DNA of 27,816 nt from a virus: the IMG/VR virus record IMGVR_UViG_3300008266_000364, positions 1 through 27,816 of that record. One strand, written 5' to 3'. The notes beneath the pieces were generated by a model that saw only the letters and a list, made by a program, of their open reading frames with translations, had not been told where the DNA came from and ran no database searches. Each line of letters begins with the position of its first letter. Position 1 is the stretch's first letter. Below are positions 3,808 to 13,477 of the stretch, in pieces. The position numbers and the translations under genes are program-made.

Positions 3808-5112
3808 GAGAATTTCAAAAAGAATTCTATCTTTACTGCAATTTTAACCAAACAAAATCCTATGTTGGGAAATCAGCATCTTTTAGAACAACTTCAGCAG
3901 ATGCTGAATTGGAAGAAAAGTAAGAAGTATTACGCAGATAAATTGGGAATTACAGAGGGTGAAGTTAATGAGTTACTGAAAGAACTTAAATACAAGAACA
4001 GTATAAATGATGAAGCTGAGGCAGCAAGTTATATTGAGGAGCTAGAAGAAGCTGTAATTAGATTTCAAGAAGATGTGCTAAAGGGAACAGGAGAGGTGGT
4101 ATTTAATTCTCCTGAAGAAATCAGATCTCTGGAAGATCTTATTGAGAAGTGTAAGATTGACACAAATAAGTGGGAAATAACTAAATATGTCCAGAACTAT
4201 TGGGGAAATGCTAAACAACCTCACTGGCAGGTAAAAGCTTGGCTTGGTAAAAAATCCAATGAGCAAGAGTTTCAGGACTCATTCATTGACTTCCTGGAAA
4301 ACTATAAGCCCCTTTCTCCAAGTGTGATGAGTCCTAAATATGAGACAGAAAAATCTAATGGATGTCTTATTATAAATAAACAAGACTCTCATCTTAATAA
4401 ATTGGATGTTGATGGATTTAATGATGTAGAAGACAGATTTGGTGCATTTGTAGAAAAGATTGAAATCATTATAAATCAAGCTCAACTGTCCAATAATCTA
4501 GAAGAAATCTACTACATAATCGGATCTGATGAATTCAATAGTGAGTTCACTGGAACTACAACAAAAGGCACTCCTCAGCAAAACATCATGCAATACCACG
4601 AATCATTTTCTAGGATTTGTGACCATGAAGTGAGTGTAATAAATCTTCTTCTGCAAAAGTGTGATTACTTACATGTCATCTATGTTCCAGGTAATCATGA
4701 TGAGTTTGTGGGGTGGCACATGGTGAAATGGTTGAAAACCTATTTCAGAAACATTAGTAGGATCAGTATTGATGATTCTCCAAATTATAGAAAGTACACA
4801 AGTTATGGTACTACAGCCATGATGTTTAACCATGGGGATGCTATAAAGCCTGCTAAACTTGCTGCTTTGTTCCCAATGGAATATAAAGAAGAATGGTCCT
4901 GGCATGATAATTTCTACATATTCACTGGTGATAAACACCATGAATTGAGCCAAGACTTCAATGGAATTAAATTTTACCAAATCCCTGCATTTTCAAATGC
5001 TAAAAGTTCCTGGGATGACAAGAATGGATACACCACTTCAAGAGCTGAAGTGACAGCATTCTTGATAGACTTTGAAGAAGGAATGACAAATATATTCAAA
5101 CAGTATTTATAA
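3805..5112 (+). CDS. Calcineurin-like metallophosphoesterase with N-terminal helical/HTH-like region
   Basis: This is a probable metal-dependent phosphoesterase of 435 residues if TTG 3805 is the start, or 416 from ATG 3862. The superfamily motifs appear in order: DSH at 194-196, GSDEFN at 240-245 (degenerate GDxxN/D), GNHDE at 296-300, H343 in FNHGD, and GDKHH at 375-379. Together these supply the usual Asp, His and Asn ligands of a two-metal centre. Residues 25-65 (WKKSKKYYADKLGITEGEVNELL) look like a helix-turn-helix, suggesting nucleic-acid contact, so a nuclease acting on DNA or RNA is likelier than a protein phosphatase. The gene stops as TAATG, coupled to the ring protein gene. Its place inside the virion block suggests use during assembly, packaging or ejection, but this is inference. 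The substrate is unknown. Confidence 0.85.
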   Translation: MENFKKNSIFTAILTKQNPMLGNQHLLEQLQQMLNWKKSKKYYADKLGITEGEVNELLKELKYKNSINDEAEAASYIEELEEAVIRFQEDVLKGTGEVVFNSPEEIRSLEDLIEKCKIDTNKWEITKYVQNYWGNAKQPHWQVKAWLGKKSNEQEFQDSFIDFLENYKPLSPSVMSPKYETEKSNGCLIINKQDSHLNKLDVDGFNDVEDRFGAFVEKIEIIINQAQLSNNLEEIYYIIGSDEFNSEFTGTTTKGTPQQNIMQYHESFSRICDHEVSVINLLLQKCDYLHVIYVPGNHDEFVGWHMVKWLKTYFRNISRISIDDSPNYRKYTSYGTTAMMFNHGDAIKPAKLAALFPMEYKEEWSWHDNFYIFTGDKHHELSQDFNGIKFYQIPAFSNAKSSWDDKNGYTTSRAEVTAFLIDFEEGMTNIFKQYL

Positions 5113-5840
5113 TGTCAACACTAAGAAAACTTGTTTCAGATGTGCGTTCTATGCATAAGGTATTGTCTACCGACAGCCTTATCACAGATAGAGCTATTGC
5201 GTCTGAGATCAAAAATAACTCTCTATTGTTAATTAAGAGAGAAACAAACCTCAGAAAGCTTTGGGCTACTGATACTTTGTTCACTACCATTTCTTGTCTT
5301 GAGATGGTAGAAGTTCCTATTTCTGAATGTTGTGATTTTGTAGATCCTTGCACTGTTGCAAGAACCAAATACAAGATCCCTCGTATAGCTGAAGGTAACT
5401 ACCAATACATAATTCAGGGTGTTTATTCTATAAACGCTATGAGTGGTAGAGGAACAAAGTTTAAAGAAATCACTGTAAACAGGTATGTAAATCTCATAAA
5501 ACTTCCAGTGATAAAAAGAGAAACTTACTACTGGATAATGAATGACTATCTGTATGTAAGTAATCCACTACTTCAGTCTATTAGAATATCTGCATTGTTT
5601 GAAACAGATGTTCCTAATGAGATGATGTTTCCTGAATGCGGATGTGGAGGAATAGAATATACTGACGAAGAGTGGTGCAAGAACCCACTTGACAAACCTT
5701 ATGCCTTACCTGGATATTTAGAGAAGCAAGTGTTAGAACTAACTTCTCAAAAAATGTTAAACACCTATTTTAGAATTAAAACTGATCAAACTTCAGATGG
5801 AGTGGATGGGCAAGCTCCTAACACAACAAATACCCAATAA
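5112..5840 (+). CDS. Ring/neck structural protein
   Basis: This 242-residue protein starts inside the previous stop (TAATG) and ends in another TAATG. The N terminus (MSTLRKLVSDVRSMHKVLSTDSLITDRAIASEI) is strongly helical and resembles a conserved ring/neck protein of crAss-like phages as I remember it. The middle has alternating beta-forming stretches. A cluster ECGCGG around residue 178, followed by a further Cys, could bind metal. The last 25 residues are polar and probably flexible. Its place directly before the IHF-like, ring 1 and muzzle genes supports a role in the connector between portal and tail. It could be any of the smaller ring proteins; I cannot pick one. Confidence 0.7.
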   Translation: MSTLRKLVSDVRSMHKVLSTDSLITDRAIASEIKNNSLLLIKRETNLRKLWATDTLFTTISCLEMVEVPISECCDFVDPCTVARTKYKIPRIAEGNYQYIIQGVYSINAMSGRGTKFKEITVNRYVNLIKLPVIKRETYYWIMNDYLYVSNPLLQSIRISALFETDVPNEMMFPECGCGGIEYTDEEWCKNPLDKPYALPGYLEKQVLELTSQKMLNTYFRIKTDQTSDGVDGQAPNTTNTQ

Positions 5841-6313
5841 TGAGAGTGAAGATTGACTGGAGAAGTTCCAGTAAAGAAAACTATATAAACTTTTGCAAAA
5901 AGAATCCTTCCATAAAAATATCATTTGATGAGTGGAAGAATATCATCTATTTGTTCAACGAGTCATTTAAAAATTACATACTAGAGACAGGAGAAAGAGC
6001 TAAGCTTCCTTTTGGTTTTGGTGAGTTCTCAATCAATAAAAAGAAAAGAAGGAAGAAGAAAGGATTGAATGATGAGTTTGTAAACCTTCCTATAGATTGG
6101 AAAAAGACCAAGGAAAAAGGAAAGGTGATTTACAATTTTAATTTTCATACAGAAGGCTATTTCTTTGGATGGGTTTGGTTTAAAGAAACCGCAAGACTCA
6201 AGAATACAGAGTTGTGGTATTTCAAACCTACAAGAACCACGTCCAGATTACTGTCTCATTACATAAAAACCAACGAGAAATATCAACATATTTATCGTGA
6301 ATGGAAAAAATAA
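5840..6313 (+). CDS. IHF/HU-like basic protein of the virion block
   Basis: This 157-residue, strongly basic protein starts in a TAATG overlap. Residues 43-80 read YILETGERAKLPFGFGEFSI followed by KKKRRKKKG. This resembles the part of HU/IHF proteins where helix 2 leads to an LPGFGxF turn and then the DNA-binding arm. Crassvirales are known to encode an IHF-like subunit in the tail block next to the tail tubular gene, and this gene sits directly upstream of that gene here. The C-terminal half (FFGWVWFKETARL and TTSRLLSHYI) is aromatic and unlike HU. The assignment rests on a short motif and on position. It could instead be a connector protein that merely carries a basic patch. Confidence 0.5.
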   Translation: MRVKIDWRSSSKENYINFCKKNPSIKISFDEWKNIIYLFNESFKNYILETGERAKLPFGFGEFSINKKKRRKKKGLNDEFVNLPIDWKKTKEKGKVIYNFNFHTEGYFFGWVWFKETARLKNTELWYFKPTRTTSRLLSHYIKTNEKYQHIYREWKK

Positions 6314-6318
6314 AATAA

Positions 6319-7287
6319 ATGTCATACTACTACAAGTATAATTTTACAACACCTGAAGTCGTTTATTCCACTGTAAAGGAAGAGCTCAAGAGCTATTTTG
6401 ATACAGGAGCAATAGATGATTTGATGTTCCCCACCTATCTAGACAAATGTCTTAGAAAGCTGGGTAGAACTAGTTATGTAATTAGCGAACAAACTCTGTA
6501 TGTGGATGACTTTGAAGCAAGGCTTCCTGACAACTTTTATGCTGTAAGAGAAGCATGGATGTGTACAGAGATTCCTCAATACCCATATCAGACAGCAAAC
6601 TCTTTCTATTCTCAAGCAGCTGATATTACAACAATTCAAGTGAGTCCTGTTATATCAAGTGGGCAACCCTGTACTAACCTTGAGTGCACAACAGGATGTC
6701 CTGAGTGCATGCCTGAATTGATACAAGCTGTTTACAAAACAAACAATTCAGTTGCTAGGTCTTACACAAAATCATATCTCCTGAAACCAGGAAACATATC
6801 AGCCAGAGGTAAGTGTGATGTTAATTATGCAGATAACTGGGAGTTTTACAGCACCCCTCCTCCATTGCATGAATTCACCCCAAATTCTGCTGGTTATGAT
6901 TCTTTTGACATTAGGGGAAATAAATTTGTTACAAACTTCAGAAGTGGCATAGTTCATCTGATATTTTATGCAACAGAGTATGATGCAGGAGGAAATCAGA
7001 TGATTCCAGATAACTTCCGTATTAGGGAGTATATTGAAGCATTTATTAAATACAAGGTGTTTGAAACTCTGTCAAATCAAATTAATGATGAGACCTTTGA
7101 TCAAATCCAAAGAAAGCTAGGATATTATAAACAGCTTTCTGAAGAAGCGTTTATTATGGCAGACATTGAGATTAAAAAGCAAGATGTCTATGCTAAACAA
7201 CGTAGAATAAAGCAGGATTTGAATAGGTTTAACATGTATGAACTTCCAAACAGAGTAAGCAGATATGGCTGGAGAAGGAACAACTAA
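6319..7287 (+). CDS. Ring protein 1 / tail tubular protein
   Basis: This 322-residue protein is likely the ring that sits below the portal, named tail tubular protein or ring protein 1 in crAss-like phages. It has a helical N terminus (VVYSTVKEELKSYFDTGAIDDLMFPTYLDKCLRKLG), a central beta-rich region, and a long helical C terminus from about 240 to 305 (IEAFIKYKVFETLSNQINDETFDQIQRK and onward). This helix-beta-helix plan is the usual one for head-tail adaptor proteins of podovirus-like phages. A Cys cluster at 118, 123, 127 and 130 lies in an apparent insertion and could bind zinc. The start follows AAAATAAAATAA. The last 23 bases overlap the start of the muzzle gene, which suggests coupled production of two contacting proteins. 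Confidence 0.75.
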   Translation: MSYYYKYNFTTPEVVYSTVKEELKSYFDTGAIDDLMFPTYLDKCLRKLGRTSYVISEQTLYVDDFEARLPDNFYAVREAWMCTEIPQYPYQTANSFYSQAADITTIQVSPVISSGQPCTNLECTTGCPECMPELIQAVYKTNNSVARSYTKSYLLKPGNISARGKCDVNYADNWEFYSTPPPLHEFTPNSAGYDSFDIRGNKFVTNFRSGIVHLIFYATEYDAGGNQMIPDNFRIREYIEAFIKYKVFETLSNQINDETFDQIQRKLGYYKQLSEEAFIMADIEIKKQDVYAKQRRIKQDLNRFNMYELPNRVSRYGWRRNN

Positions 7288-10200
7288 TATTATCCAAGAG
7301 AATAATGTAGCTCGCACTGGACTGAACATGGACCAATCCGTGAATCAGGTTCAGAAGGGACAACTTACGTATGCCCTAAATGCTGCTGTAGAAAACTTTG
7401 ACTCAAACTCTGTTAACTATCAGAATGAGCCAGGGAACGAACTTTGTTTGGAATTCCCTGAGGGATATCATCTTATTGGTACACATCTTATTAATGAGCA
7501 AAACAAACACATATTCTTTCTTACAAATCCTGAAACAGGAGCTTCTGAGATTGGATATATGGATAATAATGATTGTGTCTATCGCACTTACATTAGTGGC
7601 AATTGTTTAAACTTTAACATAAACAATCCAATACACAAGGTGGTGCATAAGATAACAAATTGCACTACAGAAATCTATTGGACAGATGGTCTCAACCCTA
7701 GGCGTTATATGGATTTGAATAATCTTCCATATAAGATTGCACCTGGTACAGACGTTTGTGATAACCAAACAATCCCAGAACTAGATTGCAATAGACTTAA
7801 GATACAACCTAATTTCTCTATACCTGAGCTTGAGGTGGCTGGTATTGCAAGTGGTGGAGGTCTGACAGCTGGTACATATCAATTTGCTATTCAATATTGT
7901 GATGTTGCAGGAGATGCTTATACATCTTATTATTCTGTAACAAACCCTACCCCTATTGCAGATCCAGCAATTACAACACCAAACTTTGATTATCCTGTTG
8001 GAAAATCTATTTTGTTAAACATTAGCAACATAGACACAACTGGTTATTTCAAATACTATAACGTTGCTGTTATTAAAACAGTGAACGCAATTACATCTGT
8101 TGAGCTCATTGGGACATTTTTCATTGATGACTCTACTAATACAATCACTTATAGTGGTCAGAATCAAACTCAAGTAAGACTTACAACTGATGACATATTT
8201 GAGAAGTTTCCATATTACGATATTGCTCAAGACCTGACAGCTGTTCAGGATGTTCTTGTTTGGGACAATCTTACATCAATAGACAGAATAAACTATCAGA
8301 AGATTGCAAATCAAATTGATCTAAAATGGCAAACATACAAGCTTCCTGCAAATGAAGACTACTCAGATGAGCTGAATGCTACAAATCTGAGAGGATACAT
8401 GAGGGATGAGGTGTATGCATTTGAGATAGTGTTTCTTCTTAGAAATGGTAAACAAACAGATGGTTTTCACATTCCAGGTAGAGAAATCTCTTATACAGAG
8501 CTTATACAACCCGATGTTCCAAATACCAATCCTGACTTTATAGGAGATGGTACAAGTGCTCCTTATTGGAAAATATACAATACAGCTTCTGTCATAGGAG
8601 ATGCTACTGGTTCAAACATTGGTAATGCCACTCCATATAAGTATGGTGAGTTTGCTTATTGGGAATCCACTGAGGTGTATCCCTGCAATGAAGATGTTTG
8701 GGGAACTCTGGCAAACCAACCTATCAGACACCATAAGTTCCCTGATGTATTAGTTAGTCCTATATTTGAAAGTGGTACACCAGTTATACAAACTGATGGT
8801 ACGTACGCAGGACTAGTGATGGAAAATAGAGCAATATTTCCTATTGGTGTTAGAGTGGATGTTCAGCAAATTGAGTATTTGATAACAACATCTGACCTAC
8901 CTCAAGACCAAAGAGATAATATTGTAGGATTTAAAATTGTTCGTGGTAATAGATCTACTAATCAGTCGATTGTAGCAAAGGGTATTCTTAGAAACGTTGG
9001 TGAATATGATAGAGAAGGAACAACTTATTACTTCCCTAACTATCCGTACAATGATCTTCGTACTGATCCTTTCCTTTTAGAAAAGAACAATGCTTACAAT
9101 CAAGAATGTATCACATATGTATTTACGTGTACTACAGATGGTTTATATGAATACACTGATTGTTTCGTCAACTCTGTAAACAGCGAAGCAATGGTTGCTG
9201 GAACAGAATATACAGTTTGTTCTCTCACTGTACCTGTAGCAATAACTGGAACAATATCTACACCAAACGCAATTCAGTATGATACATATTTTATAAAATG
9301 TGATGGCATTATAGTGAAGTTTGGATATATAGATCCTATAACATTAAACACTGAATATATAACACTAATTACTGCTCAATCTAGAACAATACAAGTTGAG
9401 GCTGGAACAGTACCAAATGTAGCATTTAGAATTGGTGGATATACATTAAGATTAGTTTCTGAAAGTAGTGATGGTCCAAATGAATATTGTTATCCTGATC
9501 AACTTGAAGCATTTAACACAGATGCATCTAAATACAGACAAGTATTTAACTCACCAGATACATCATTTGGTAGACCCTTCCTTGGAGATATTCTAAAACT
9601 TGAAAGTGCAATATACGGTACAGGCAATGCTCACTTTGTTCAAGTGGAAGATAATGCTAATTACAAACTGTTAACTAAAGAGGCACAACAAGATGCACTT
9701 GCTTCTTCCGAAAAAATTGCTGATATTACAGCAACATTTGATGCTGCTGCAATGTTTGCTGCATATCAATCCTACTTGCAAATCTATATAAATGGAATAA
9801 CTAGAAGAAACTATGCATATTCCTACAATTCTATTGCAAAATATGGATACTCAGCAGCCATAGATAATGGACTAGGTGTTAAACAAAGAACACTTGGAAT
9901 TGCTCAATATCTTATCCCTGGAGTTCAATCCGCTGGTGACAATCACAACATCAACAACTTCCAGAGAGAATCTTCTGTATACCTGAAGACAATAGAAGAT
10001 AGAGATGGTCTATCTGTTTCTCCTCTACCGTTTCCAAGTGACACTCCTAATCTTTTAACTAGTGGTGGAACTAGTGTTGTTGAAGATAAGTCTAGATATA
10101 TTGCATCAAATGTTCCAGATTCAAATAATTGTTATCAACCTGAGAAACTGTTTGACATAACCACCGTATCTTATTACGCATCACTGAAGAATATATTTGT

Positions 10201-11950
10201 TAATCAGTGGGGTCAGATGTACTCGTATGAAACAATTGATACAGGATTCCAAAGAAACCTTGACAACCTAACAGCTGATCCAGTTGTCACTGTATTTGGT
10301 GGAGATACATTTATTAACAAATTCTCTTTCAAAACAAAGCTTCCTTTCTTTATTGATAATAGAGTGGGAGCTCCCGATGATAGTGACATATTCTATGATG
10401 AGATAGGTAATGTTGCCTATCCTGCATACTGGCATTCATCTAGATCTATTCTTTATGATTATGTGACATCAGAAACTCCATCTCCTGAAACATTAAAAAA
10501 TATCATATCAATCAAAGCTCACAACTTTGATTGTCCAAATAGTCAGCTACCTGCACCAGATTCGTCTGTTACACCTGCTATTGTGAATCCTGGAAGGACA
10601 TATTATGATGGTAAGTTTTATTTATTTGCCTACGGTATTCCTACATTCTACTGTGAGTCGACAGTGAATGTAGATCTTAGGCAAGCATATAACAATAAAG
10701 AAGGTGATTTCTATCCACACGTGAGTACAGGTATTCCTGATCAATGGTTGCAAGAAAGTTTTGTAACTATTGCTCAAGATAACACCTATTATTATAATAG
10801 CACGTTCTCAAAGCAAAACAATGAGAACTTCTTCTCACATTTACCAATAGATTGGAAAGAGCAACTCTGTTATACTAATTTCCCATTCAGGGCAATTTAT
10901 TCTGACAGACAACAAAGTTTCACAGATAATAGGATAAACAGCTGGTTGATTTACAGACCCATTAGCTTCTTTGATTTCCCACAGAACTATGGTAAACTTA
11001 CATCTCTTGATGGAATTCAGAACAGAGCTGTACTTGCTAGGTTTGAGAATAAGTCATTGTTGTATAACACAATGTTGACAATTGACACTAGCAATCCTCA
11101 GGCTGCTTATGTAGGAAATGATACATTATTTAGGAGTGCTCCTCCAATTGACTTTGCAGAAACAGATCTTGGATTTGTAGGAAGCCAACATAAAATGTTG
11201 CTTAAAATACCTCAAGGACAAGTTACAATAGATGCTAAAAGAGGTCAAGTGTTTCTGGTTACAGGTAATAGTGTAAAAGATTTGTCTGGATTTGGTTCAG
11301 GATTAAATAGGTTCTTTACAGATCATCTAGCATTTGAAATACTTAGGTATTTTCCAAATGTCCCTGTAGATAACCATTTTAATGCTGTAGGTTTACATGG
11401 AGTGTATGATAGCAAGTTTGACAGAGTGATTATCAGCAAGTTGGACTATATTCCTCTCAATGCTAATATTAAATATGATGCCACTGAAAATAAGTTTTAT
11501 ATAAATAAAACCTATGGTACATCTGTTCTGAAGCAATATGTAGAACTTACAGATGGAGATTACTTCTGTAACAAGTCTTGGACACTTTCTTACAATTTCA
11601 ACACTAATAGCTGGGTAAGTTTCCATAGCTACATTCCCAACTGGTATATTGCTGAGAACAACTTCTTCTATTCTGGTATAAATGGAGGTTGTGATTTGGA
11701 AGCAATTGCTGCTCAAGAAGTTGAATGCACACCAGATTGTACGTTAGAAGGAACAATTAGTGTGTTTGATTGTGCTCTCGAGGGTGAGGTGGAAATTGTA
11801 ATCACCACCACTACAACCAGTACAAGTAGTACCACTACTAGCACTAGTACAACAAGTACAACAACTACGGCATATCCTCCAGAATGTAATCTAGATGGGG
11901 TGGCTCTAATCATAACTACAACTACAACAACCACAACAACAACTCCGTAA
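7265..11950 (+). CDS. Tail stabilisation/muzzle protein, Thr-rich C terminus
   Basis: A 1561-residue protein starts inside the preceding gene. Its N terminus (ARTGLNMDQSVNQVQKGQLTYALNAA, then NEPGNELCLEFPEGY and CTTEIYWTDGLNPRRYMDL) matches my memory of the giant tail protein of crAss-like phages, called tail stabilisation protein or muzzle. That protein forms the lower end of the short tail. The middle is beta-rich without recognisable catalytic motifs. The core seems to stop near residue 1472 (WVSFHSYIPNWYIAENNFFY). The last 85 residues are unrelated in style: four Cys-x-Leu-Glu/Asp units (C1476, C1492, C1503, C1541), a Thr/Ser tract from about 1514 and a final run of ten Thr. The domain that normally follows the core seems to be encoded in the gene at 12608. 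Confidence 0.8.
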   Translation: MAGEGTTNIIQENNVARTGLNMDQSVNQVQKGQLTYALNAAVENFDSNSVNYQNEPGNELCLEFPEGYHLIGTHLINEQNKHIFFLTNPETGASEIGYMDNNDCVYRTYISGNCLNFNINNPIHKVVHKITNCTTEIYWTDGLNPRRYMDLNNLPYKIAPGTDVCDNQTIPELDCNRLKIQPNFSIPELEVAGIASGGGLTAGTYQFAIQYCDVAGDAYTSYYSVTNPTPIADPAITTPNFDYPVGKSILLNISNIDTTGYFKYYNVAVIKTVNAITSVELIGTFFIDDSTNTITYSGQNQTQVRLTTDDIFEKFPYYDIAQDLTAVQDVLVWDNLTSIDRINYQKIANQIDLKWQTYKLPANEDYSDELNATNLRGYMRDEVYAFEIVFLLRNGKQTDGFHIPGREISYTELIQPDVPNTNPDFIGDGTSAPYWKIYNTASVIGDATGSNIGNATPYKYGEFAYWESTEVYPCNEDVWGTLANQPIRHHKFPDVLVSPIFESGTPVIQTDGTYAGLVMENRAIFPIGVRVDVQQIEYLITTSDLPQDQRDNIVGFKIVRGNRSTNQSIVAKGILRNVGEYDREGTTYYFPNYPYNDLRTDPFLLEKNNAYNQECITYVFTCTTDGLYEYTDCFVNSVNSEAMVAGTEYTVCSLTVPVAITGTISTPNAIQYDTYFIKCDGIIVKFGYIDPITLNTEYITLITAQSRTIQVEAGTVPNVAFRIGGYTLRLVSESSDGPNEYCYPDQLEAFNTDASKYRQVFNSPDTSFGRPFLGDILKLESAIYGTGNAHFVQVEDNANYKLLTKEAQQDALASSEKIADITATFDAAAMFAAYQSYLQIYINGITRRNYAYSYNSIAKYGYSAAIDNGLGVKQRTLGIAQYLIPGVQSAGDNHNINNFQRESSVYLKTIEDRDGLSVSPLPFPSDTPNLLTSGGTSVVEDKSRYIASNVPDSNNCYQPEKLFDITTVSYYASLKNIFVNQWGQMYSYETIDTGFQRNLDNLTADPVVTVFGGDTFINKFSFKTKLPFFIDNRVGAPDDSDIFYDEIGNVAYPAYWHSSRSILYDYVTSETPSPETLKNIISIKAHNFDCPNSQLPAPDSSVTPAIVNPGRTYYDGKFYLFAYGIPTFYCESTVNVDLRQAYNNKEGDFYPHVSTGIPDQWLQESFVTIAQDNTYYYNSTFSKQNNENFFSHLPIDWKEQLCYTNFPFRAIYSDRQQSFTDNRINSWLIYRPISFFDFPQNYGKLTSLDGIQNRAVLARFENKSLLYNTMLTIDTSNPQAAYVGNDTLFRSAPPIDFAETDLGFVGSQHKMLLKIPQGQVTIDAKRGQVFLVTGNSVKDLSGFGSGLNRFFTDHLAFEILRYFPNVPVDNHFNAVGLHGVYDSKFDRVIISKLDYIPLNANIKYDATENKFYINKTYGTSVLKQYVELTDGDYFCNKSWTLSYNFNTNSWVSFHSYIPNWYIAENNFFYSGINGGCDLEAIAAQEVECTPDCTLEGTISVFDCALEGEVEIVITTTTTSTSSTTTSTSTTSTTTTAYPPECNLDGVALIITTTTTTTTTTP
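11804..11944 (+). repeat. Two Thr-codon tracts at the 3' end of the muzzle gene
   Basis: The first tract (about 11804-11872) mixes ACN with AGT/AGC codons. The second (11915-11944) is ten Thr codons in a row before Pro and stop. Between them lies one Glu-Cys-Asn-Leu-Asp-Gly unit. Because both tracts are preceded by a similar Cys-x-Leu-Glu/Asp-Gly unit, the region looks like a duplicated module. Confidence 0.85.
11834..11849 (+). repeat. Direct repeat, copy 1
   Basis: ACTACTAGCACTAGTA is found again at 12198-12213, inside the Thr tract of the next gene. It is read as Thr-Thr-Ser-Thr-Ser in the frame of both genes. A second shared word, ACAACAAGTACAAC, begins at 11849 and at 12225. Confidence 0.9.
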
Positions 11951-11960
11951 AATATAATAT

Positions 11961-12605
11961 ATGGCACAAACAGTATTAATAACATTAACAACCGCTGGAG
12001 CTGATACAGGTCCTTTTGATTTGTATTCAGATGCAGATGGTTATGTTGCACCATTTGAAACAGGTGTTAGTAAATCATCTTTAACAGCAGGATATGTATC
12101 AGTGTTAGTACCTGATCTTGCTACTATAATAAGAGTTAAGTCAGAAAGTACACTTTGTACTAACTATGTAGATCTATCGTTAGTTACATCTACCACAACT
12201 ACTAGCACTAGTAGTACAAGCACTACAACAAGTACAACCACTGAAGCACCAACCACAACCACTACAACTACTGAAGCTCCAGAGATAATCACAATTGATG
12301 CTTGTGGTGCTATACAAGCTGATGGTTCTGGTAATGTAGTAGTTTATGCTTATGCAAGTGGAGCAGTTGATACAAATGTTAGTGTAGATGTTACCTGGAC
12401 TGCTGCAGATTTGAGCACTATTAGTGGAACTGTAACAATTGGTTCTGGAACAACTTGTGGAACTGCTACGTTGACAGGAGCTGATCCTAGTGAAACTGGT
12501 GCCAATTTGGAAATAGATACAATAACTCCAGGATCATTTGGTAATCAAACTTATGTAGAAGGAACAGAAAATCTCTCTTCTTCTTGCACAACCTGCCCAG
12601 AATAA
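11961..12605 (+). CDS. Thr-linker protein with C-terminal beta domain
   Basis: This 214-residue protein has an N-terminal beta module (residues 1-72), a Thr/Ser-rich linker with two Glu-Ala-Pro marks (about 76-107), and a C-terminal domain rich in Val, Thr, Gly and Ala (108-214). The last resembles an immunoglobulin-like or other small surface beta domain (SVDVTWTAADLSTISGTVTI). Two Cys close the end (CTTC). Its N-terminal module aligns with that of the next protein, sharing an AG, a Gly-Val turn, the KSSL-x-x-G motif and a Cys near the end. It starts after AATATAAT ten bases behind the muzzle stop. It is probably a virion decoration linked functionally to the muzzle. It is not a recognised family, so the role is inferred. 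Confidence 0.7.
   Translation: MAQTVLITLTTAGADTGPFDLYSDADGYVAPFETGVSKSSLTAGYVSVLVPDLATIIRVKSESTLCTNYVDLSLVTSTTTTSTSSTSTTTSTTTEAPTTTTTTTEAPEIITIDACGAIQADGSGNVVVYAYASGAVDTNVSVDVTWTAADLSTISGTVTIGSGTTCGTATLTGADPSETGANLEIDTITPGSFGNQTYVEGTENLSSSCTTCPE
12186..12281 (+). repeat. Thr-codon tract with Glu-Ala-Pro marks
   Basis: About 32 codons, mostly ACN with AGT/AGC interruptions, encode a Thr/Ser linker broken twice by Glu-Ala-Pro. The pattern is the same as in the tract at 3381-3446. Confidence 0.85.
12198..12213 (+). repeat. Direct repeat, copy 2
   Basis: This is identical to 11834-11849 and in the same codon register within its own gene. The copies are 364 bases apart. Confidence 0.9.
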
Positions 12606-12607
12606 AT

Positions 12608-13477
12608 ATGAGTAAGGCAATTGTCATAAAATTAAAAAAGGCTGGAAGTAGACTAAGCACGTTCTCTATATCTGACGATATGGGGAATGTGCTTGCTACT
12701 GACGTGCCCAAAAGTAGTTTAATTTCAGGACTAGCACTTAGTGTGAATGATTCTGTAAAGGTGGTTGTTTTATCATCTACAGGAGTTAATTGTTGTTCTA
12801 AGAAATGGAACATTCCTGTTACAGAGATTTGTTTAACAGATCTAGCAGCAATCCAATATACAGAAGCAAATACATCATCTCTCTGGAGACATCTAACAAA
12901 TCCTGTAATATATAACACATTTTACGGATGCACTAAGTCTTATATTATTGAATATCCTTTTGCATATCAATATTACGATGAGATACTTCAGAACGTAAAA
13001 GACTATACAAAAGCATACAAATATCTATCTCCTGACGATGGTGTATTTAATGATAATAGAAGGGTGGCAATTAATGGATATTTCAACAAAGCTGTATTGT
13101 ACAATGATCAGCAGAGTACAGGGGTACTTGAGCTTGTTGCTAAACCTATGAACAATCTAAATGCATACTTGAAGTATCCTGTATATAACACTGATAGTAA
13201 GACAATTACGTATACCAAGTCAGACAATTTCTATCAATACAATACATTCTGGTCTCTAGTAAAAGATAAATCTATACCTTTGTTTACAAAGACTTGTGAG
13301 TCTCTGTCTATAGATAAAGTGGTTAACCAGATTAATATGGACTATGGAAAGAGATCCTTCAAGAAAGAACCTCTAAGAGCTAAGGATTTGAAGGTGAGAC
13401 ATATTCTAGATAACTCAGATGAAACTCACCTTGTTTCTCAATTCATTATAACACCAAGCCAAATTTCTTACAAGTAA
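12608..13477 (+). CDS. Detached muzzle C-terminal domain with N-terminal beta module
   Basis: I place the start at ATG 12608, after AATAAAT and two bases behind the previous stop, rather than at the in-frame ATG 12584 inside the upstream gene. The protein is then 289 residues. Residues 1-70 repeat the N-terminal module of the preceding protein (IVIKLKKAG ... VPKSSLISG ... CC). From about residue 85 the sequence changes to SSLWRHLTNPVIYNTFYGCTKSYI and continues to EPLRAKDLKVRHILDNSDETHLVSQFIITP. This is the kind of sequence I expect at the C terminus of crAss-like muzzle/stabilisation proteins, directly after the segment that ends the 1561-residue protein. It would fold with the muzzle in the virion. 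It stops as TAATG, coupled to the next gene. Confidence 0.65.
   Translation: MSKAIVIKLKKAGSRLSTFSISDDMGNVLATDVPKSSLISGLALSVNDSVKVVVLSSTGVNCCSKKWNIPVTEICLTDLAAIQYTEANTSSLWRHLTNPVIYNTFYGCTKSYIIEYPFAYQYYDEILQNVKDYTKAYKYLSPDDGVFNDNRRVAINGYFNKAVLYNDQQSTGVLELVAKPMNNLNAYLKYPVYNTDSKTITYTKSDNFYQYNTFWSLVKDKSIPLFTKTCESLSIDKVVNQINMDYGKRSFKKEPLRAKDLKVRHILDNSDETHLVSQFIITPSQISYK

Follow-up and report, generated by a model that had tools for sequence, protein, structure and literature searches.

The window, by which we mean the whole stretch of 27,816 bases analysed here, is an IMG/VR record from a crAss-like phage. Its genes run in the order ring 2, IHF-position gene, ring 1, muzzle, two small genes and large cargo-position genes, as in crAss001, where ring 1, the muzzle and cargo-type genes follow one another alike; the two ring genes were assigned by Pfam, and position was the sole basis for the IHF-like and cargo-type genes (Table 1). 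The muzzle, a conserved gatekeeper in infection by crassviruses, is thought of as one chain. Here, the large muzzle ORF is followed by a middle gene and by a C-terminal gene.

Table 1. Features of the muzzle locus in the window.
Feature	Position	Strand	Evidence
Ring 2	5112-5840		Pfam
IHF-position gene	5840-6313		Position only
Tail ring protein 1, upstream neighbour, fixes synteny	6319-7287	+	Pfam CrAss_Ring_1, 37.7 bits (cutoff 27)
Large muzzle ORF, 1561 aa	7265-11950	+	
Muzzle core, residues 1-1472, N-terminal muzzle part up to the break	7265-11680	+	crAss_MUZ, PHROG 37948 and 15100, tblastn
Conserved stub after the break	11681-11725	+	Column counts, 116 loci
Stub Cys1476	11690-11692	+	
C-terminal core extension, variable and rich in Thr, with CxLxG repeats	11726-11950	+	
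Middle gene, 214 aa: module A (residues 1-85), Thr linker, C-terminal beta-type module	11961-12605	+	
C-terminal gene, 289 aa	12608-13477	+	
Module A', 88 aa, new domain at the N-terminus of the C-terminal gene	12608-12871	+	
Module A' Cys62 and Cys63	12791-12796	+	
Muzzle C-terminal domain (CTD), 201 aa, separately encoded	12872-13477	+	
CTD Ser91	12878-12880	+	
CTD Cys108	12929-12931	+	

The first-pass annotation had claimed that the large protein is a typical muzzle core up to about residue 1472 which then changes to low-complexity repeats, and that the gene at 12608 resumes the muzzle; both readings held. The 1561-residue protein matched Pfam crAss_MUZ with 143.4 bits (cutoff 27), the best stretch being residues 12-304, and in tblastn searches against intact muzzles its homology stopped at residue 1472-1473, to resume at residue 89-90 of the 289-residue protein. 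PHROG 15100 (1783 aa) matched the core with its positions 9-418 (E 1.6e-32) and residues 89-287 of the later protein with positions 1587-1781, the last 195 (E 6.4e-13). Between the homologous parts lie 89 repeat-rich codons, rather than the 85 or so first proposed, a Thr-linker gene and a beta module of 86-88 aa, with the ORFs otherwise as described. Aligned to full-length muzzles, a check proposed along with the annotation, residues 1286-1472 of the large protein and residues 89-289 of the C-terminal gene product fell contiguously on the same single proteins in four intact muzzles, those of Leptolyngbya phage Lbo-JY46, csAssE-Sib, MT837925 and Flavobacterium FpV4, with a gap of 6-21 nt, and were contiguous also in L280, an intact relative. 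In most intact relatives the two segments are 3-30 nt apart within one ORF; the reference muzzles thus do not end where the core ends, nor did the 289-residue protein prove to be an unrelated family that is always encoded separately. It may be noted that the 289-residue protein had no Pfam match at all, that the CTDs of the window and of 57 relatives did not match crAss_MUZ_C (PF25729), and that a direct sequence search of PDB with either protein returned no muzzle, while the profile and structure routes succeeded. The link of the CTD to crAss_MUZ_C goes through FpV4, to whose C-terminus it aligns and which itself matches PF25729 (E 9.5e-10), and through profile alignment.

To place the break we used crAss001 gp44 (PDB 7QOK, 7QOL; PF25731 crAss_MUZ and PF25729 crAss_MUZ_C; PMC10172136), a homologue of these proteins over the length of the core and again from the start of the CTD. 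Profile alignment put the core end on gp44 residues 1027-1232 (E 4.7e-9) and the C-terminal piece on 1236-1309 (E 3.1e-6), and the boundary of Pfam's MUZ and MUZ_C families on gp44 (1235/1244) coincides with the break. According to PMC10172136 the IG2 and crass domains of gp44 end at residue 1021, and on our reading of its domain map the remainder of the chain would comprise beta-propeller and ring-joining domains. The break likely falls in a hairpin turn of the C-terminal beta-propeller region (EFYAF-KDG-KMWEQ in gp44), and not in the distal crass domain, which refines the earlier reading. This placement comes mainly from the alignment and the published domain map, because the models themselves reach no more than modest confidence (pLDDT 59-60). 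The intact L280 protein, modelled across the break (pLDDT 59), had solved crAss001 muzzle chains as its best matches, its residues 33-486 superposing on gp44 1026-1371 with Z 11.2 and a Foldseek E-value of 4.4e-9; it is for this intact sister that the gp44 C-terminal fold was recovered. The model of the 289-residue protein was poor in its muzzle part as against a well-predicted module A', and pLDDT of the CTD was somewhat higher in the contiguous sister context than alone, in runs whose input alignments differ.

The split is not confined to this record. All scans together gave 186 distinct loci with a core end and a full CTD, 18 of them intact and 168, from many metagenomes, split into two or three ORFs at the same residue. 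This recurrence argues that the break is due neither to chance nor to assembly error. That the window is a single 27.8-kb metagenomic contig would have allowed for an error in sequencing or assembly, or for gene decay; given the intact ATG and the purifying selection described below, together with the number and spread of the loci, we regard the probability of such an artefact as negligible. In a tree built from 48 split sequences and 13 intact ones, all the split ones formed a single group (UFBoot 99) whose sister was the intact L280 (100), which points to a single origin of the split, while the one-ORF muzzle was kept in L280 and its relatives L287-L289. The break is a trait fixed throughout a clade rather than a peculiarity of this phage. 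One further locus (L307, 4236-6515) has broken reading frames in both the core and the C-terminal gene, reflecting assembly errors or decay. A plasmid search for relatives gave no match, and a search of genome contigs for a host link found no relatives either.

The C-terminal gene has a start of its own. In the 161 split loci counted, its start was ATG in every one, the core stop was TAA in 158, and an in-frame stop lay within 30 nt upstream of the CTD ATG in 88%. Median dN/dS was 0.088 for the CTD, 0.162 for the core end and 0.56 for module A', and the CTD gene is thus under strong purifying selection. These data bear on whether the two chains end up joined, be it through frameshifting, through readthrough or recoding of the stop, or through an intron or intein. 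Recoded stops, introns and inteins occur in zeta crAss-like phages, as described in PMC12386605 and PMC7886860, and the core and CTD of the window are by coincidence in one frame; however, the core-to-CTD frame offsets are spread 57/49/55 over the 161 loci, and the TAA stops and the stops ahead of the CTD start stand against any continuous product. At gathering scores no Rfam intron family matched the window; the gap is protein-coding, and many loci carry complete module-A genes between the parts. A frameshift or readthrough product was rejected, as there is neither a fixed frame relation nor overlapping ORFs, and we hold fusion of any kind to be very unlikely.

Besides the muzzle part, the C-terminal gene carries a new domain. 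In nearly all of the 117 distinct split loci examined first it consists of a module A' of 85-88 aa followed by 201-203 aa of muzzle; module A' was present in all 117 and absent from intact relatives. Its model is a beta-sandwich (pLDDT 72-89) with weak FN3/Ig-like matches. An HMM of the N-termini of the C-terminal genes matched residues 1-85 of the middle gene (E 2.1e-13), and this family HMM links modules A and A' even though BLASTP of one against the other in the window gave nothing. The beta module, which the first-pass annotation had listed between the two muzzle parts, is now placed within the C-terminal gene as a homolog of the start of the middle gene. An NCBIfam PilV match to the middle gene was set aside as far below its cutoff. 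Module A also stands at the ATG start of separate genes elsewhere in IMG/VR and would be a widespread N-terminal module of these phages; at L190, L196, L201, L212, L227 and other loci it begins separate genes, is followed by variable ends and belongs to no Pfam family.

What lies in the gap varies greatly. Between the core and the C-terminal gene, 68 of the 117 loci have no gene, 44 have one and five have two, and these middle genes nearly always start with module A, which was never found inside a core extension in the same loci. The core extension after the break measures 16-857 aa in the 117 loci and 17-1695 aa in relatives, the shortest natural tail, in L123, being the stub alone. Extensions contain tandem repeats, and CxLxG repeats number 343 in 161 extensions against 28 in shuffles; the CxLxG peptides sit between Thr runs, at 11681-11947 of the window and in core extensions of relatives. 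The first-pass annotation held the inserted domains to be exchangeable, and near-identical contigs L056 and L084 agree with this, as they share identities of 1.00 in the core and 0.96 in the CTD and of 0.23 in the insert. What fills the gap is a set of variable, exchangeable domains on Thr linkers. It is possible, though we think it the less probable reading, that the gap does no more than tolerate insertions, with extensions that are neutral or structural and display nothing. Thr-rich repeats can grow by slippage, and most long inserts match no known family, which speaks for such tolerance and leaves receptor binding as something we infer. On the other side, near-identical genomes have replaced their inserts, some inserts belong to folded-domain families (Fib_succ_major in L115, DUF5122 propeller repeats in L146), and module A begins separate genes.

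A further pattern concerns the cysteines around the break. After the break nearly every core carries a conserved stub, N-x-[G/C]-C-D-[L/F]-[E/D]-A. Over 161 loci, stub position 1475 and position 91 of the CTD protein both had Cys in 90 and neither had it in 71; for stub 1476 and Cys63 of module A' the counts were 160 and 1, and for the intra-chain pair A' Cys62 and CTD Cys108 they were 38 and 123, with no mixed locus for any pair. The pair 1475/91 ranked first among 27,742 inter-chain column pairs. On the tree the cysteine changes coincided in 3 of 3 and 5 of 5 cases, and because these events are so few (3 and 5) the perfect tables overstate the independence of the loci. Seven loci outside the count agree with the pairing, and none of 18 intact relatives has Cys at the turn. 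In the window, where position 91 is Ser, the Cys1476-Cys63 pair would be the only inter-chain staple, accompanied by a bond predicted between Cys62 and Cys108 of the C-terminal chain. Disulfides between crAss001 tail proteins are known, and inter-chain disulfides, either within one subunit or from one subunit to its neighbour, probably staple the broken muzzle here. This co-variation also speaks to whether the C-terminal piece is a separate protein with a place of its own in the virion, outside the muzzle. Its own start and its new N-terminal domain are what such a protein would have; yet it adjoins the core in every locus examined, is strongly constrained, and has cysteines that, right at the break, vary together with those of the core stub, so that we consider a separate protein improbable. 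The co-varying cysteines likewise lend support to the earlier claim that the terminal domain is supplied in trans.

As a whole, the split, the independent start, the new modules, the constraint, the turnover and the cysteine co-variation, all established by comparison of sequences, are best explained if the crAss-like phage of the window makes its muzzle, the tail-tip protein, from two chains, which we consider very probable. The sequences show that in the ancestor of the clade the muzzle gene was opened once at a short turn (gp44 1232/1236), that the conserved stub and a variable Thr-linked C-terminal extension were added to the upstream piece, and that the downstream piece acquired an ATG and module A', related to the N-terminal module of free-standing genes. 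Each chain would be translated from its own gene, the two genes being neighbours, and the C-terminal chain of 200 aa, in six copies per tail, would complete the core fold in trans, held by one or two inter-chain disulfides at the break (Cys1475-Cys91 and Cys1476-A' Cys63). With less certainty, the opened turn might serve as a display site, bearing exchangeable adhesion-like domains on a free chain end. Because the CTD starts on its own, stops, indels and swaps in the gap would spare this essential domain. This clade, spread over many metagenomes, has opened its muzzle without losing it and made the break a site of turnover for surface domains, a natural design for placing variable domains on an essential structural protein with its fold shielded from changes in the insert. 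The split also yields sharp predictions, namely the cysteine pairs and a muzzle of two or three chains.

A muzzle in three ORFs was seen at six loci with a second break (L272, 1-5737; L298, 3-5726; L301, 2-5726; L303, 3-5726; L304, 1-5726; L330, 884-6707). Here the core ends within the hairpin loop ahead of the main break, and a further gene with an ATG of its own, starting for example with MADENTK or MAEEKK, provides the next ~55 residues, the stub and the extension. The stub of L330 is unlike that of the others, which suggests that the second break arose more than once. We lean towards a general reading in which exposed turns of a tail-tip protein act as break-and-display sites, the chain being cut at one or two of them, with each new end carrying exchangeable surface domains and with cysteine pairs that arose only in the split lineage rejoining the pieces in the virion. 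The intact muzzles of L267 and L268 carry roughly 200-300 additional residues, inserted in frame within the hairpin that precedes the break site, the same loop as that of the second break; owing to this location they were rejected as intermediates at the main break.

Among known systems, gp44 is one chain of 1371 aa; it is the split clade that has module A', an insert at the turn and the stub. In the muzzles of Lbo-JY46, csAssE-Sib, Cellulophaga phi17:2, FpV4, L280 and L287-L289 core and CTD are contiguous and can be aligned to either side of the break; they are single ORFs without cysteine at the turn. BACON/Ig-like display proteins of crAss-like phages (PMC6949934, PMC13370021) likewise are modular beta-sandwich domains of fast turnover, and displayed Ig-like proteins can act as adhesins (same references), but they are whole separate proteins, while the domains of the split clade hang from a break inside the muzzle. 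In the parts of the published crAss muzzle-protein literature that were searched we found no mention of a split muzzle. Automatic annotation misses the C-terminal gene, which has no Pfam family to be recognised by and appears in public records as an uncharacterised protein: Virus NIOZ-UU157 A0A7S9SU37 (287 aa, BFVD) is 56% identical to the 289-residue protein over its full length, and a deposited genome therefore already carries the C-terminal gene, unannotated. Another BFVD entry, A0A8S5LXY9 of CrAss-like virus sp. ctRQZ5 (142 aa), is annotated as a muzzle C-terminal domain protein and could be another separately encoded CTD or a fragment.
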